IMG/VR virus record: IMGVR_UViG_3300047494_000017
Coordinates: 1-40,938 of that record
Source of the DNA: a virus
Strand: one strand, 5' to 3'
DNA length: 40,938 nucleotides
Each line of letters opens with the position of its first letter. Position 1 is the first letter of the stretch. Position numbers and translations under genes: made by a program. Of this stretch, positions 6,339-40,938 are shown piece after piece. The notes beneath the pieces were generated by a model. The model ran no database searches, was not told the DNA's origin, and saw nothing but the letters and a program-made list of their open reading frames with translations.

Positions 6339-6701
6339 TCACTTCCCATCCTCAGCGTAACGCACCACAAAGAGGGCGGCTTCGCATAGCTCTCTGGGTG
6401 TTCTCATTAAATCACCCCAAACCTCATAGAAGTCATGATCACCCAGCTTCCTATTTGGAAATAAGGAACAAAGAAAATCGTATATAGAAAGTTCGTTCTC
6501 AATCTTCTCAAGCACAAGCTGAGCGTGGTTGCGGTCTTGGCAGGGGTTAAAAAATCCATAGTCGCCACAAGCTATTTCTAACCCGTCGGGGGATCTAAAT
6601 GTTTTAACTTCGCCTAAGTCTACGAAGTGAGCCAGAGCCATATTTAAATCCCAATCACTTAAAGCCCGAATCTCATCCATAAGCCGCGTTTTAGTCATCA
6701 T
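6339..6701 (-). CDS. Phage ABA-sandwich-like protein, 120 aa
   Basis: The order LSDWDLNMALAHFVDL, then FNPCQDRNHAQLVLEKI near residues 51-67, then WGDLMRTPRELCEAALFVVR near 95-114, follows the pattern of the phage 'ABA sandwich' domain common in early phage operons. Function unknown. The start is ATGATG at 6701/6698, 26 nt after the predicted cleavage site of the type I hammerhead, so its 5' leader would be made by ribozyme cutting. Confidence 0.65.
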   Translation of the reverse strand: MMTKTRLMDEIRALSDWDLNMALAHFVDLGEVKTFRSPDGLEIACGDYGFFNPCQDRNHAQLVLEKIENELSIYDFLCSLFPNRKLGDHDFYEVWGDLMRTPRELCEAALFVVRYAEDGK

Positions 6702-6722: not shown

Positions 6723-6786
6723 CCATAGACACGTCGTCCCTTCCACAAAACGACGTGTTTCGGCTTATCAAGCCTCATCAGTATGG
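6723..6786 (-). ncRNA. Type I hammerhead ribozyme (HHR I-A)
   Basis: Minus strand. Stem I 5' CCATA (6786-6782), core CTGATGA (6781-6775), stem II GGCTT-GAT-AAGCC (6774-6762), core GAAA (6761-6758), stem III CACGTCG (6757-6751), 14-nt loop, CGACGTG (6736-6730), T (6729) pairing with the last A of GAAA, C17 (6728), then stem I 3' TATGG (6727-6723). All conserved core positions are present and all three helices pair perfectly. Cleavage is expected between 6728 and 6727, just before the 6701 gene. Open stem I makes it type I. Confidence 0.9.
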
Positions 6787-36326: not shown

Positions 36327-38423
36327 TCATTTCTTATACCTCTTTCCTCGCCATCCTTCGGCCGACAAAGGAAACCCATCGGCCCAATCAGGCAATGTCG
36401 TAAACAGTTTGTTAAACTCTTCAACTGAACCGAAGCCTTCGGGTACCTCGGACCCTGCTTCATCGTGTACGCTAATTACTACAGGGTACCCGTTAGCCTC
36501 TAACTGAAGCATTCCTTCTGCTAGTAAATCCCTACAAACTGCTTGAGTTATATTTTCCGCCCATAAGCCGCCATAGGGTGATTGTTCCAGAAATACCGCA
36601 ATGCCGCCGCTTGTACCCACAAAAGTTAATGCGTAAGGCTTACGTTTATTCTTGGTCGCGTAAACCTTTGGTTTAAAATACGCTAGGCATCGGCCGCTCG
36701 GTAATTTACAGTACAAAAATGCGCCGTGCGTAAAGAATATAACCTTACCTACAGGTTGAGGTCTCCCTAATAGAACGGCGTCTAGCGCGGCCGCTTCTAA
36801 AGCGTACCAAAATCGAACAACCTTTTGGTTTGCTTTACGCCACCGTTGTTTGATGATATCGGCGGCTAAGCCCTCTGTACGGGTCAGAGGAAGCGCTTTA
36901 TCAGAGAGCCTAGCCAAAGACGCATCGTAGGCATTTTCGGCACTCTCTCGCTCATTCTGGCTAGCCGTAGGCCATATAATATCGTAAACCGGTTCCAAGT
37001 CAATTCCGTATCCTTTAGCCATCGTACCAAATGCTCCCATTGCGCCCTGGTACCCCAAAGCCAGTACGGCGACTTTGCCGATTTGCCGTTCAAAGGGATG
37101 GTCCTTTTTATTAACCGGATACCCAAAAATTTCAGAGGCTTGTACATTATAGACGTCTTTACCTGTGCGAAACGCTTCTAACGTTTCTTTATCGTCTACA
37201 AGCCACGCTAAACCGCGTGCTTCAACTGAAGCGTAATCAGAAACAATCAGGTCATACCCTTTTTTTGGGATTATCATTCCCCGTAAAGAAGCAGATAGCG
37301 CCTTTAAGACATCTGGGTAAAGTAGCTCGAACATCTCATAATCGTACTTTAGCATTATTTTGATACAGTAATCCGAATCGATATCGCCACGCGGCATATT
37401 CTGAGGTTGAACCCGGCGACCGCCCCATCGACCAGTGGAAGCGGCGTGGTAAGCCAAAAGGTCTAAAACCCTACCTCGACCGTCTGAACCTAGTTTCATC
37501 GCCATATATTTAGCTGTACTGCTCTTTCCCAACTGTTGCCTTATGCCTAGGACTTTCCGAGCTAGGTCCGGGAGATCCTTTTGAGCCAATGTCTTAGCGA
37601 CTGTAACGGCATCTAAAGAGGGCAAAGATACTCCGAGAGTAAGGAGAAACTCTCGCATTTTGGCGATAGCGGTATGGCTCTTGCAATATCCGTTAGTGAG
37701 TTCGACTAATTCAGCTTTCAGCTTAGTGGTGTATATTTCGATGTAATCTAACGCAATGTCGACCGCGTGAACATCAATCTGGACGCCGCGCTGATTTATG
37801 CGTTGGTCCATAAACCAAATTTCTTGTTCTTTAGGCGTTAAATCTCGAAGCTCTTTATCGACGGCCCGTTCCGCTTCAACGTCTAGCATATTGTACTGAT
37901 AGAGGGTTTCGTAATCTTTTTGACTCTCAAAATACTTGTCTTTATTGAATTTTGACTCTTTACGTGGCTTTGAAAGCTTTAGCATTGTGCGACTTGCCGA
38001 TGCGTCTTTTATGGTCTCTAGCCCTAAGGCCCTTCCCGAGTCAAATAAACCCGCCGGTAAAGCGTGAGCTACGCATTTAGCAAGGGTACAACGCCACCGT
38101 TTAATGGGGATAGGCGCAAAGCCGTATCGTTTGACCATAATATGACGCCATATTGCTTGTTCAAACCCGGCATTGTGAGCAATAAATAAAGCGCTCTCCA
38201 ATTGATTTACCGCCAAAAGCTCATATAGCACATTAATGTTTGACCGATTTTTAACTTCGGCGTGTTTCACTAATTCAGGTTGTTTAATGAGCCTCACCGG
38301 CCCATCGTCCACACAGTATGCTAAACACATAATCTGTGTGGACGGGTCCGACGCGTAAATATCCGCACCACACTTCTTAAGGTCGATTTCAGAGCGAGTC
38401 TCAAAGTCGATGTGTATGCGCAT
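36327..38423 (-). CDS. Family A DNA polymerase with 3'-5' exonuclease
   Basis: 698 aa. The exonuclease domain has DFETRSE (residues 5-11) and FIAHNAGFEQAIW near 78-90. The polymerase has motif A VSDYASVEARGLAW near 395, a motif B region RQIGKVAVLALGYQGAMGAFG near 444-464, and motif C VISVHDEAGSEVP near 648-660. Replicates the phage genome. It lacks the acidic Leu tail seen on its partners and instead ends GWRGKRYKK, strongly basic. Confidence 0.95.
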   Translation of the reverse strand: MRIHIDFETRSEIDLKKCGADIYASDPSTQIMCLAYCVDDGPVRLIKQPELVKHAEVKNRSNINVLYELLAVNQLESALFIAHNAGFEQAIWRHIMVKRYGFAPIPIKRWRCTLAKCVAHALPAGLFDSGRALGLETIKDASASRTMLKLSKPRKESKFNKDKYFESQKDYETLYQYNMLDVEAERAVDKELRDLTPKEQEIWFMDQRINQRGVQIDVHAVDIALDYIEIYTTKLKAELVELTNGYCKSHTAIAKMREFLLTLGVSLPSLDAVTVAKTLAQKDLPDLARKVLGIRQQLGKSSTAKYMAMKLGSDGRGRVLDLLAYHAASTGRWGGRRVQPQNMPRGDIDSDYCIKIMLKYDYEMFELLYPDVLKALSASLRGMIIPKKGYDLIVSDYASVEARGLAWLVDDKETLEAFRTGKDVYNVQASEIFGYPVNKKDHPFERQIGKVAVLALGYQGAMGAFGTMAKGYGIDLEPVYDIIWPTASQNERESAENAYDASLARLSDKALPLTRTEGLAADIIKQRWRKANQKVVRFWYALEAAALDAVLLGRPQPVGKVIFFTHGAFLYCKLPSGRCLAYFKPKVYATKNKRKPYALTFVGTSGGIAVFLEQSPYGGLWAENITQAVCRDLLAEGMLQLEANGYPVVISVHDEAGSEVPEGFGSVEEFNKLFTTLPDWADGFPLSAEGWRGKRYKK

Positions 38424-38429
38424 TTTAAG

Positions 38430-38774
38430 TTATCTTTCGATTCTTTTGGCGAGGGTTACACCGCGCATATTCTGGTCTTTCGGATTAGCAACCGCTATGA
38501 TACTAGGCTCATCCGGCACTTGCGTATTATAATTATCCAAGGGGGTTTGAGTGCCACGATATTCATTCCAATGTTCCATAAAGAATTTAGCGGAACGTTT
38601 GTCGTCAAGCTTAATTCCGTTATGCGTTCCATAGAATATTTCGACTTCAAACGTTTCATTGGCATTTCGGTTGTTTTTGACAAAACGCACTTCGGCTAAA
38701 TTAATGTCCATTCCGCACGTTTGAGAACCGACCGCGCCAGTTTCAACCCGTATCCAATAGGGCTCTTTAGTCAT
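38430..38774 (-). CDS. Unknown protein in the replication operon, 114 aa
   Basis: I start at ATG 38774 (MTKEPYWIRVETG) with GGAG 9 nt upstream; the frame also has a TTG two codons earlier. Alternating strands (YWIRVETG, NLAEVRFVKN, FEVEIFYG) and a basic end (GVTLAKRIER). Preceded directly by the ribozyme at 38797. No family recognised; position suggests a replication accessory. Confidence 0.6.
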   Translation of the reverse strand: MTKEPYWIRVETGAVGSQTCGMDINLAEVRFVKNNRNANETFEVEIFYGTHNGIKLDDKRSAKFFMEHWNEYRGTQTPLDNYNTQVPDEPSIIAVANPKDQNMRGVTLAKRIER

Positions 38775-38796: not shown

Positions 38797-38872
38797 GGGC
38801 CTGTCTCCTCAGTATCGGTAGGCCATTTCCGATAAACACCTCTCCTTGTCCAAGTCAGAGAGGTGTTTCGAC
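38797..38872 (-). ncRNA. Type II hammerhead ribozyme (HHR II-B)
   Basis: Minus strand: stem II 3' GTC (38872-38870), GAAA (38869-38866), stem III CACCTCTC (38865-38858)/GAGAGGTG (38844-38837), U16.1 (38836), H17 = U (38835), stem I TATCGG (38834-38829)/CCGATA (38818-38813), core CTGAGGA (38812-38806), stem II 5' GAC (38805-38803). Loop I GGCCT (38824-38820) can pair with AGGCC (38802-38798), a pseudoknot. Cleavage expected between 38835 and 38834. The first base overlaps the last base of the upstream gene's TAG stop. Open stem II makes it type II. Confidence 0.88.
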
Positions 38873-39528
38873 TATTGTTGAGGTTCTTCTGTTTCAGTAG
38901 CGGCATCCGTTGGCGATGTATTGGGCGGCGAGTCTATCCCATTCTCTACATCGGTTTCGGTTGATGGTTCTAAAGGCGTCTGTGATGGGGGATTGTCCGT
39001 AGATGATTCGCTCGGAGAATGTGTCCAGCCAATAATTTCCCCCTGCGCGTTTGGGTCCGGTGCAGGCATTTGAAAGGTATAAGTATCTACGGGGTCATTA
39101 GGTGCGGCAGATGTAGAGTTTGGAGTAGGTAACGGTGGTACTGTTACTGAGACTGGGTCGGGATGAATAGGCGCGTGACCTCCGCTAGCGCGAGAAGCCG
39201 CTAAGGATGCCTCTTCATTAGGAACAGAATCGGCAATCGACAAGCTACCCGGAACGCGATTGGCATCTGGTTTGGAAAGAGAGGCCCCATATTGCGCGAA
39301 CTGTTCAGCCGTAACAAATCCATTTGCTTTAAGAAATGGGTCACGTTGCAAAATAACCTCTTTTGCAATTTGAAACGCAATACGGGGAGCCTGTTCTAGA
39401 GGGTCAAGGTCGCCATTAGCGAGTAACCCCGCTAAAGCCATCCCCGCGTAATGGTCAAACAACGCCATATCTTGAATGCTGTCTAACACTTTGACTCGTT
39501 CAACTTCGTTTTCATTAGTATCGAACAT
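38872..39528 (-). CDS. Unknown protein with disordered acidic tail, 218 aa, between two ribozymes
   Basis: Residues 1-85 look folded and helical (VKVLDSIQDMALFDHYAGMALAGLLANGDL...RIAFQIAKEVILQRDPFL). The remaining 130 are Pro/Ser/Thr/Asp/Glu-rich and disordered. AGGAG 8 nt before ATG 39528. Ribozymes lie directly before and after it, so its message should be cut free on both sides. No family recognised. Confidence 0.65.
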   Translation of the reverse strand: MFDTNENEVERVKVLDSIQDMALFDHYAGMALAGLLANGDLDPLEQAPRIAFQIAKEVILQRDPFLKANGFVTAEQFAQYGASLSKPDANRVPGSLSIADSVPNEEASLAASRASGGHAPIHPDPVSVTVPPLPTPNSTSAAPNDPVDTYTFQMPAPDPNAQGEIIGWTHSPSESSTDNPPSQTPLEPSTETDVENGIDSPPNTSPTDAATETEEPQQ

Positions 39529-39548
39529 TTTAGAATCTCCTATTCATT

Positions 39549-39614
39549 GGGCCTATCTCATCAGGGAGTGGAAGCCATTCACTCCGACCGGGGTAATATG
39601 CCCCCGGTTTCGAT
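39549..39614 (-). ncRNA. Type II hammerhead ribozyme (HHR II-A)
   Basis: Minus strand: stem II 3' ATC (39614-39612), GAAA (39611-39608), stem III CCGGGG (39607-39602)/CCCCGG (39593-39588), U16.1 (39587), C17 (39586), stem I GGAGTG (39585-39580)/CACTCC (39570-39565), core CTGATGA (39564-39558), stem II 5' GAT (39557-39555). Loop I GGCTT (39576-39572) can pair with AGGCC (39554-39550) as a pseudoknot with one G-U pair. Cleavage expected between 39586 and 39585. It begins on the base after the DUF2815 stop codon. Confidence 0.88.
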
Positions 39615-40169
39615 TTACAAATCGTCAAACAATGCAGCGTTACCGGCGGCAGGTTTCGCAGGCCCTAGACCGGCAAACGCTTCCTCGGCGGTTGAACGAG
39701 AGATTAAAGGTTCGCCATCGGAATGTTTCATCAAGTTGTTTAAACCAAATGATATACCCCGATTACCCTTTTTGTCGAATGCATAAGCGTTAACTTCTGC
39801 AACAGCATAGCATCCTGCGTAAAACTCGCCCGGATTGATAATTTTTTGCAAATTTGCATCAACTAAGCCGGGTTGTTGGTTAAACGATTTCGCTGCAACA
39901 ACGATTTTATCACGGTATTCCGGGCGTTTAACCAAGTCGAATTCGTCTTCGGTCCCTTGGCGAAATGGTGATTTTAACTTTCCACCGTCGGGGAATTTCG
40001 CGATGGCGGCGGCTTTGGCTATGCGACGCATTTCACTCAAATCGGCATCAGAATCGAAAATCATCGTAACCGCCCAGTATTCGTCCCCACTTTCGTTTTT
40101 TGCTTTCGTGAAGATATATGGAAAACTCACCCTAAAAATAGGGGTGATAACGGATTCGTTTTTTGGCAT
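39615..40169 (-). CDS. DUF2815 family protein, probable ssDNA-binding protein
   Basis: 184 aa. FRVSFPYIFTKAKNESGDEYWAVTMIFD near residues 8-35 and GEFYAGCYAVAEVNAYAFDKKGNRGISFGLNNLMK near 113-147 are the DUF2815 pattern; this family is regarded as an OB-fold, ssDNA-binding-like phage protein paired with DUF2800. The C-terminus AALFDDL is an acidic-hydrophobic tip like those on SSB-type proteins. AAAGGAC before ATG 40169. Confidence 0.85.
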   Translation of the reverse strand: MPKNESVITPIFRVSFPYIFTKAKNESGDEYWAVTMIFDSDADLSEMRRIAKAAAIAKFPDGGKLKSPFRQGTEDEFDLVKRPEYRDKIVVAAKSFNQQPGLVDANLQKIINPGEFYAGCYAVAEVNAYAFDKKGNRGISFGLNNLMKHSDGEPLISRSTAEEAFAGLGPAKPAAGNAALFDDL

Positions 40170-40199: not shown

Positions 40200-40938
40200 T
40201 TACAAGTCGAGAAACGCTTCTACACTGTCGGGTAAACGCGCTTCTCTATCGTCCTCTACCGGAACCAATGTCTTTCCGGTATCAGGCTTTTCACATAATT
40301 GGTCTATGAGCGCTTGTTGACGCTTACCGACCAATTTTTCCATCTGTGCGGGGCTACGCAATTTAGGTGGCATATAAATTTCATTCCCGAAATCAAACTC
40401 GAAAGTTTGCGCAACGGCAATTTCATTTATCCATCGACGGTTCCCACGCTTACCCACAAGCTTATAACCAGGAATTTCAACACCCGTTTCGGCTATAGAG
40501 TGCGCGTAGGCCACTACCGAATCGGCCCAATCTCGAAGTATAATGGCATTTTTGAGGATGTGCCCAATAAATTCAGGGTCCATCTCTTGAGGTTTAGGGA
40601 GTTGAAACGGCTTTGCGACGTCCTTAAACGCCAGCCGTGCCAATCCGGTTGCCTCGTCGCGCTTTTCCGGGCAAATCGCTTTCGCATTGCAGAATTTACA
40701 ATGGGGGCCTAATTTTAAGGTAGTATCCCCCTCGCGTACTCGTGCTATAGCGGCGCGTAGTTCCTCCATATGAGCCAATAGCTCGATGGTAGAAAGCCAC
40801 CATTGCCGCACAGGGCCATCTGGGTGTTTTGCGCGGGGTTGTACAATGCGTAGATTGATACCCGTTATAGCAACGCGCTCTTGTGGTGTAAGCGAAAAGT
40901 ACGCACCCAGGGCGTAATATAGAAGCTGTTTATTGTAG
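40200..40938 (-). CDS. DUF2800 family protein, C-terminal part (continues from base 628 through the join)
   Basis: The last 203 codons (40811-40203) plus stop; bases 40812-40936 repeat the start of the window. GPHCKFCNAKAICPEKRDEA carries three closely spaced Cys that, with the N-terminal Cys region, could bind an iron-sulfur cluster or zinc as in AddB/Cas4-like nucleases. Ends VEAFLDL. Sits 30 bp upstream of DUF2815. Confidence 0.85.
   Translation of the reverse strand, partial: YNKQLLYYALGAYFSLTPQERVAITGINLRIVQPRAKHPDGPVRQWWLSTIELLAHMEELRAAIARVREGDTTLKLGPHCKFCNAKAICPEKRDEATGLARLAFKDVAKPFQLPKPQEMDPEFIGHILKNAIILRDWADSVVAYAHSIAETGVEIPGYKLVGKRGNRRWINEIAVAQTFEFDFGNEIYMPPKLRSPAQMEKLVGKRQQALIDQLCEKPDTGKTLVPVEDDREARLPDSVEAFLDL
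40811..40936. repeat. Right copy of end-to-end direct repeat
   Basis: Identical to 1-126. See the left copy. Confidence 0.9.

Follow-up and report, generated by a model that had tools for sequence, protein, structure and literature searches.

Known hammerhead ribozymes

The closest described systems are the type II hammerheads (Rfam RF02276), for which Perreault et al. 2011 (PMC3088659) described a pseudoknot between loop I and the 3' tail. In a type II hammerhead other than those considered here, disruption of this pseudoknot drastically lowered cleavage at 0.5 mM Mg2+ and a compensatory mutation restored high activity; cleavage by pseudoknot hammerheads can exceed 1 per min (PMC3088659). 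Published hammerhead arrays cleave in vitro, and that of A. tumefaciens does so in E. coli; the same study described prophage hammerheads that flank single genes or short blocks of genes, and suggested that transcripts are processed into single-gene mRNAs. A base-paired pseudoknot is also the tertiary contact of the RAGATH-1 hammerhead (RF03152) and of a crystallised pseudoknot hammerhead (PMC11300833), and in the latter form it replaces helix II, its partner being an additional stem-loop attached to helix I. The extended type I and type III hammerheads have the same catalytic core, and in them a peripheral contact likewise joins the regions of stems I and II, in their case through non-Watson-Crick interactions of loop I with loop II.

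Two type II hammerheads in a phage genome

The window, by which is meant the whole stretch of 40,938 nucleotides of virus record IMGVR_UViG_3300047494_000017, carries two type II hammerheads, referred to here as copies A and B. The ribozymes and the genes around them are listed below in minus-strand order, followed by a third hammerhead found elsewhere in the window.

39615 to 40169, minus strand: gene for an Enc34-type ssDNA-binding protein (PF10991), upstream of copy A
39550 to 39614, minus strand: copy A, a type II hammerhead ribozyme that starts with AUC (5' strand of stem II) and ends with AGGCC (3' strand of the pseudoknot); RF02276 score 34.9 bits
39588 to 39607, minus strand: copy A stem III hairpin, CCGGGG...CCCCGG
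39586, minus strand: copy A predicted cleavage, 3' of the C in GUC (N17 in hammerhead numbering; stem I starts at 39585)
39565 to 39585, minus strand: stem I of copy A, GGAGUG/CACUCC; the loop is AAUGGCUUC, in which GGCUU is the pseudoknot 5' strand
39550 to 39554, minus strand: copy A pseudoknot 3' strand AGGCC
38872 to 39528, minus strand: 218-aa ORF between the two ribozymes (TAG stop at 38872-38874)
38798 to 38872, minus strand: copy B, a type II hammerhead ribozyme that starts with GUC (5' strand of stem II) and ends with AGGCC (3' strand of the pseudoknot); RF02276 score 31.5 bits
38837 to 38865, minus strand: copy B stem III hairpin, CACCUCUC...GAGAGGUG, with a long loop
38835, minus strand: copy B predicted cleavage, 3' of the U in GUU, an uncommon site (stem I starts at 38834)
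38813 to 38834, minus strand: stem I of copy B, UAUCGG/CCGAUA; the loop is AAAUGGCCUA, in which GGCCU is the pseudoknot 5' strand
38798 to 38802, minus strand: copy B pseudoknot 3' strand AGGCC
38430 to 38774, minus strand: ORF of about 114 aa downstream of copy B (ATG 38774-38772; Shine-Dalgarno GGAG 38787-38784)
36327 to 38423, minus strand: family A DNA polymerase gene, at the end of the same minus-strand run
6723 to 6786, minus strand: third hammerhead, type I, with stem I CCAUA/UAUGG, a five-pair stem II GGCUU-GAU-AAGCC and the site GUC

Both copies have the full type II architecture, comprising stems I, II and III, a complete core with all the invariant positions, and an NUH site. Loops close stems I and III and stem II is open, the NUH site precedes stem I (GUC in copy A, GUU in copy B), and the core positions C3 U4 G5 A6 N7 G8 A9 and G12 A13 A14 with the pair A15.1-U16.1 are present in both, as is GAAA. 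Read 5' to 3', copy A is AUC-GAA-(A15.1, stem III hairpin, U16.1)-C-(GGAGUG AAUGGCUUC CACUCC)-CUGAUGA-GAU-AGGCC, in which stem II is AUC/GAU, stem III has seven pairs including A15.1-U16.1, the site is GUC and the core CUGAUGA. Copy B is GUC-GAA-(stem III)-U-(UAUCGG AAAUGGCCUA CCGAUA)-CUGAGGA-GAC-AGGCC, with stem II GUC/GAC, ten pairs in stem III including A15.1-U16.1, the site GUU and the core CUGAGGA. The predicted folds contained stems I and III for copy A and stem III for copy B; for the latter nested minimum-energy prediction, by a program that cannot represent pseudoknots, preferred an alternative fold of stem I and the core.

A type II descriptor that required the core, the NUH site and the three stems and ignored loop I gave exactly two matches in the 41 kb, and 60 Markov-simulated windows yielded no match. 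The two type II motifs of the sequence-only reading are borne out, both being complete and on the minus strand. Their RF02276 scores of 34.9 bits (copy A) and 31.5 bits (copy B) fall just below the gathering score of 37 and a default Rfam scan therefore reports neither; the gathering score is a curation threshold rather than a structural requirement, and many array members in other phages exceed it. Apart from these scores, and the G7 and GUU of copy B, the copies are like the published class: stem II is open and the other two stems are closed, the core is the same, loop I forms a pseudoknot with the 3' tail (four pairs or more occur in a majority of type II hammerheads, and each copy has five), and the ribozymes occur in a phage or prophage and cluster around single genes (PMC3088659). 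Copies A and B are further examples of the already described type II hammerhead class.

The genes around the ribozymes are, like the ribozymes themselves, encoded on the minus strand, and comprise a DUF2800 nuclease-like gene, the Enc34-type ssDNA-binding protein gene, the two ORFs of 218 and about 114 aa (38872-39528 and 38430-38774), which had no Pfam or PHROG match, and the gene for the family A DNA polymerase. A Holliday junction resolvase, an SNF2-type helicase and a VapE/primase protein are also encoded on this strand, and portal-, capsid- and terminase-like genes lie on the plus strand. The ends of the window overlap by 126 nt (1-126 and 40811-40936) and the DUF2800 gene is split across them, and on this basis the contig probably represents an entire phage genome of about 40.8 kb, circularly closed or permuted. 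At 17 loci in the nearest relatives, around their homologues of the DNA polymerase, portal or DUF2815 genes, no orthologous ribozymes were found. The type I hammerhead at 6786-6723, on the same strand of the same phage as the two type II copies, has a long stem III and lies just upstream of a small ORF (6339-6701); the only Rfam matches for it were to RAGATH-1 and type III, both below threshold.

The loop I pseudoknot

In copy B, GGCCU of loop I pairs with the AGGCC directly 3' of stem II, and in copy A GGCUU pairs with an AGGCC in the same place with one G-U among its five pairs, exactly as had been proposed from the letters alone. Stems I and III are nearly unrelated in sequence between the copies and are still paired, which also agrees with that proposal. 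A random loop of the same length would give five pairs with the given tail in 4.4% of cases for copy B and 3.4% for copy A, and shuffling of the loop's own letters gives them in 0.4% and 2.4% respectively. From either copy alone the pseudoknot is thus suggestive, and it is convincing only together with the relatives. The sequence-only reading had called it covarying, and within the window this does not hold: the AGGCC strand is the same in A and B and the sole difference is one-sided, C-G to U-G, so covariation between the two copies was rejected. Across relatives the description stands.

Relatives were sought in two ways. A first scan of viral sequences used the core together with an AGGCC tail, and on the contigs that it found every ribozyme with a tail other than GGCC shows the pairing (36 of 36; at most 20 in shuffles). 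A second scan, of viral and genomic contigs, relied on GUCGAAAC...CUGAUGAGAC alone, so that neither loop I nor the tail entered the search. In this blind scan at least four loop I-tail pairs were present in 71 of 120 non-redundant viral type II hammerheads (shuffle maximum 41) and in 28 of 48 genomic ones (shuffle maximum 19). The alignment for compensatory change that had been suggested as a check was assembled without gaps over 38 columns from 53 non-redundant sequences, namely copy B and the blind-scan members with a stem I of equal length. Changes on both sides are seen at each of the six pseudoknot pairs, 82% of pseudoknot cells are paired and 60 cells are compensated as against 17.3 in shuffles; when the partner is shifted by one column pairing falls to 34-42%, and any shift collapses the signal. 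In this alignment the pairing of stem I was in part selected for by the descriptor, whereas that of the pseudoknot was not. It is supported by these counts, and by the two-sided changes at six pairs, that the pseudoknot and stems have probably been under selection for structure, as the sequence-only reading had supposed.

Among the blind viral set the ribozymes with the pseudoknot have a three-pair stem II in 43 of 56 cases, whereas those without it have a four-pair stem II in 42 of 49 cases, together with a short, often UNAN-like loop I. The window copies fit the class with pseudoknot and three-pair stem II. The pseudoknot-free class, often with a stem I of seven pairs, was seen in L128, L130, L131, L136, L150, L175 and other relatives.

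The idea that the pseudoknot stands in for the usual contact between loop I and stem II is supported, but it had already been proposed by Perreault et al. 2011 (PMC3088659), and a novel tertiary contact is accordingly rejected; the earlier interpretation is correct and not new. The disruption and rescue at low Mg2+ that had been suggested as a check was carried out in that study on another type II hammerhead. The five-pair helix of the window copies, Watson-Crick with G-U, differs from the loop-loop contact of the extended type I and III hammerheads. It also differs from the pseudoknots of RF03152 and PMC11300833, since helix II is kept (three pairs in both copies), the pseudoknot lies outside stem II, the partner of loop I is the 3' tail and the permutation is a different one. 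Identity with the 2024 pseudoknot hammerhead structure (PMC11300833) was rejected on this difference in topology, and that structure is not the structure of these ribozymes.

Placement between stop codon and Shine-Dalgarno sequence

Both copies are fitted closely between the genes that flank them. Stem II of copy A directly adjoins the TAA stop of the upstream gene (39615-39617), and that of copy B has one G in common with the TAG stop at 38872-38874, the last base of the stop. In each case a Shine-Dalgarno sequence and ATG come after the pseudoknot strand, the starts being 29 and 31 nt past the first base of the stem II 3' strand. Relatives are arranged in the same manner. Of the usable pseudoknot ribozymes, 64 of 78 and 46 of 56 have an upstream ORF whose stop codon ends no more than 12 nt ahead of GAAA, where about 2 would be expected from neighbouring offsets, and in most relatives the distance is 2-6 nt. 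The next start codon, accompanied by a Shine-Dalgarno sequence, lies a median of 28 nt beyond stem II. A tight fit is likewise found in type II hammerheads that have no pseudoknot.

In L008 the unit of ribozyme, Shine-Dalgarno sequence, ORF and stop codon is repeated over seven consecutive ORF units. Dense type II arrays that occupy many consecutive gene gaps, each ORF stop adjoining the next ribozyme, were seen at L008 8125-11328 and L217 3619-6707, and in L063, L009 and L133.

The main text of Perreault et al. 2011 (PMC3088659) makes no mention of stop codons or Shine-Dalgarno sequences, and a literature search on these elements returned nothing relevant from the sources covered, which took in few subscription journals. 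Counts of sigma-70 promoters and intrinsic terminators were not above those in shuffles and the two spacers had no terminator-like site, and the spacers were rejected as ordinary transcription signals. A cut after N17 leaves the stop codon upstream and the Shine-Dalgarno sequence downstream, so that neither message would be truncated.

Proposed function and alternative explanations

Hammerhead chemistry leaves a 5' product that ends just past the stem III hairpin in a cyclic phosphate and a 3' product that starts with a 5'-OH at stem I. From the sequence, architecture, pairing, conservation and placement shown above we infer activity, processing and an effect on stability, and consider it very likely that these are active type II ribozymes of a tailed phage, held by their pseudoknots, that split a polycistronic transcript into single-gene mRNAs. 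The loop I-tail pseudoknot would hold both ribozymes in the active fold, and the nascent minus-strand transcript, of early or replication genes, would be cut in the gaps on both sides of the 218-aa ORF, each time past the stop codon of the upstream gene and ahead of the Shine-Dalgarno sequence of the next. The upstream message would then finish in a 2',3'-cyclic phosphate behind the hairpin of stem III, and the downstream one would open with the stem I hairpin and carry a 5'-OH, both ends being plausibly shielded from exonucleases, and the single-gene mRNAs might be translated and decay separately.

Genome compaction is a sufficient rival account of the placement: selfish or near-neutral ribozymes might persist only in the gap between stop codon and ribosome binding site, with cleavage of little effect. 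The patchy occurrence of the ribozymes, with no type II hammerhead at the 17 loci related by polymerase, portal or DUF2815 similarity, is in keeping with such passengers, as are the variation in the flanked genes among phages and the tight fit of the pseudoknot-free type II hammerheads. We nevertheless regard it as unlikely, because compensatory changes preserve the pseudoknot and stems over many lineages, which argues that structure has been selected, and because some phages have a ribozyme in many consecutive gaps. The nearness of the stop codon (2-6 nt before GAAA in most relatives, with an overlap of one base between stop and stem II in copy B) could alternatively mean that folding is prevented by a terminating ribosome that sits on stem II and the GAAA core strand; cleavage would then report translation of the upstream gene. 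If that were true the phage would tie RNA cutting to upstream translation, but cleavage at more than 1 per min (PMC3088659) may precede the arrival of the ribosome and compaction accounts for the same placement, and such coupling seems distinctly improbable.

Copy B has some unusual traits, with G at position 7 in only 4 of 240 relatives and U17 (a GUU site) in 3 of 240, and as these are rare it is possibly slow. Their combination, together with an enlarged stem III and its long loop, might be taken as degeneration, one or both copies being inactive and the copy B pseudoknot a relic. Position 7 is not among the invariant core positions of hammerheads, the invariant core is complete, all stems and the pseudoknot are intact, and a relative in L133 likewise has CUGAGGA with an AGGCC tail; we judge decay very unlikely.

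A 2017 review (PMC6155905) treated the biological role of prokaryotic hammerheads as an open question. The precision, to the nucleotide, with which the ribozymes fill the space from stop codon to Shine-Dalgarno sequence, together with the arrays in consecutive gaps, points to phage mRNA being cut into single-gene units, and this idea of segmentation is one that can be tested with laboratory phages.
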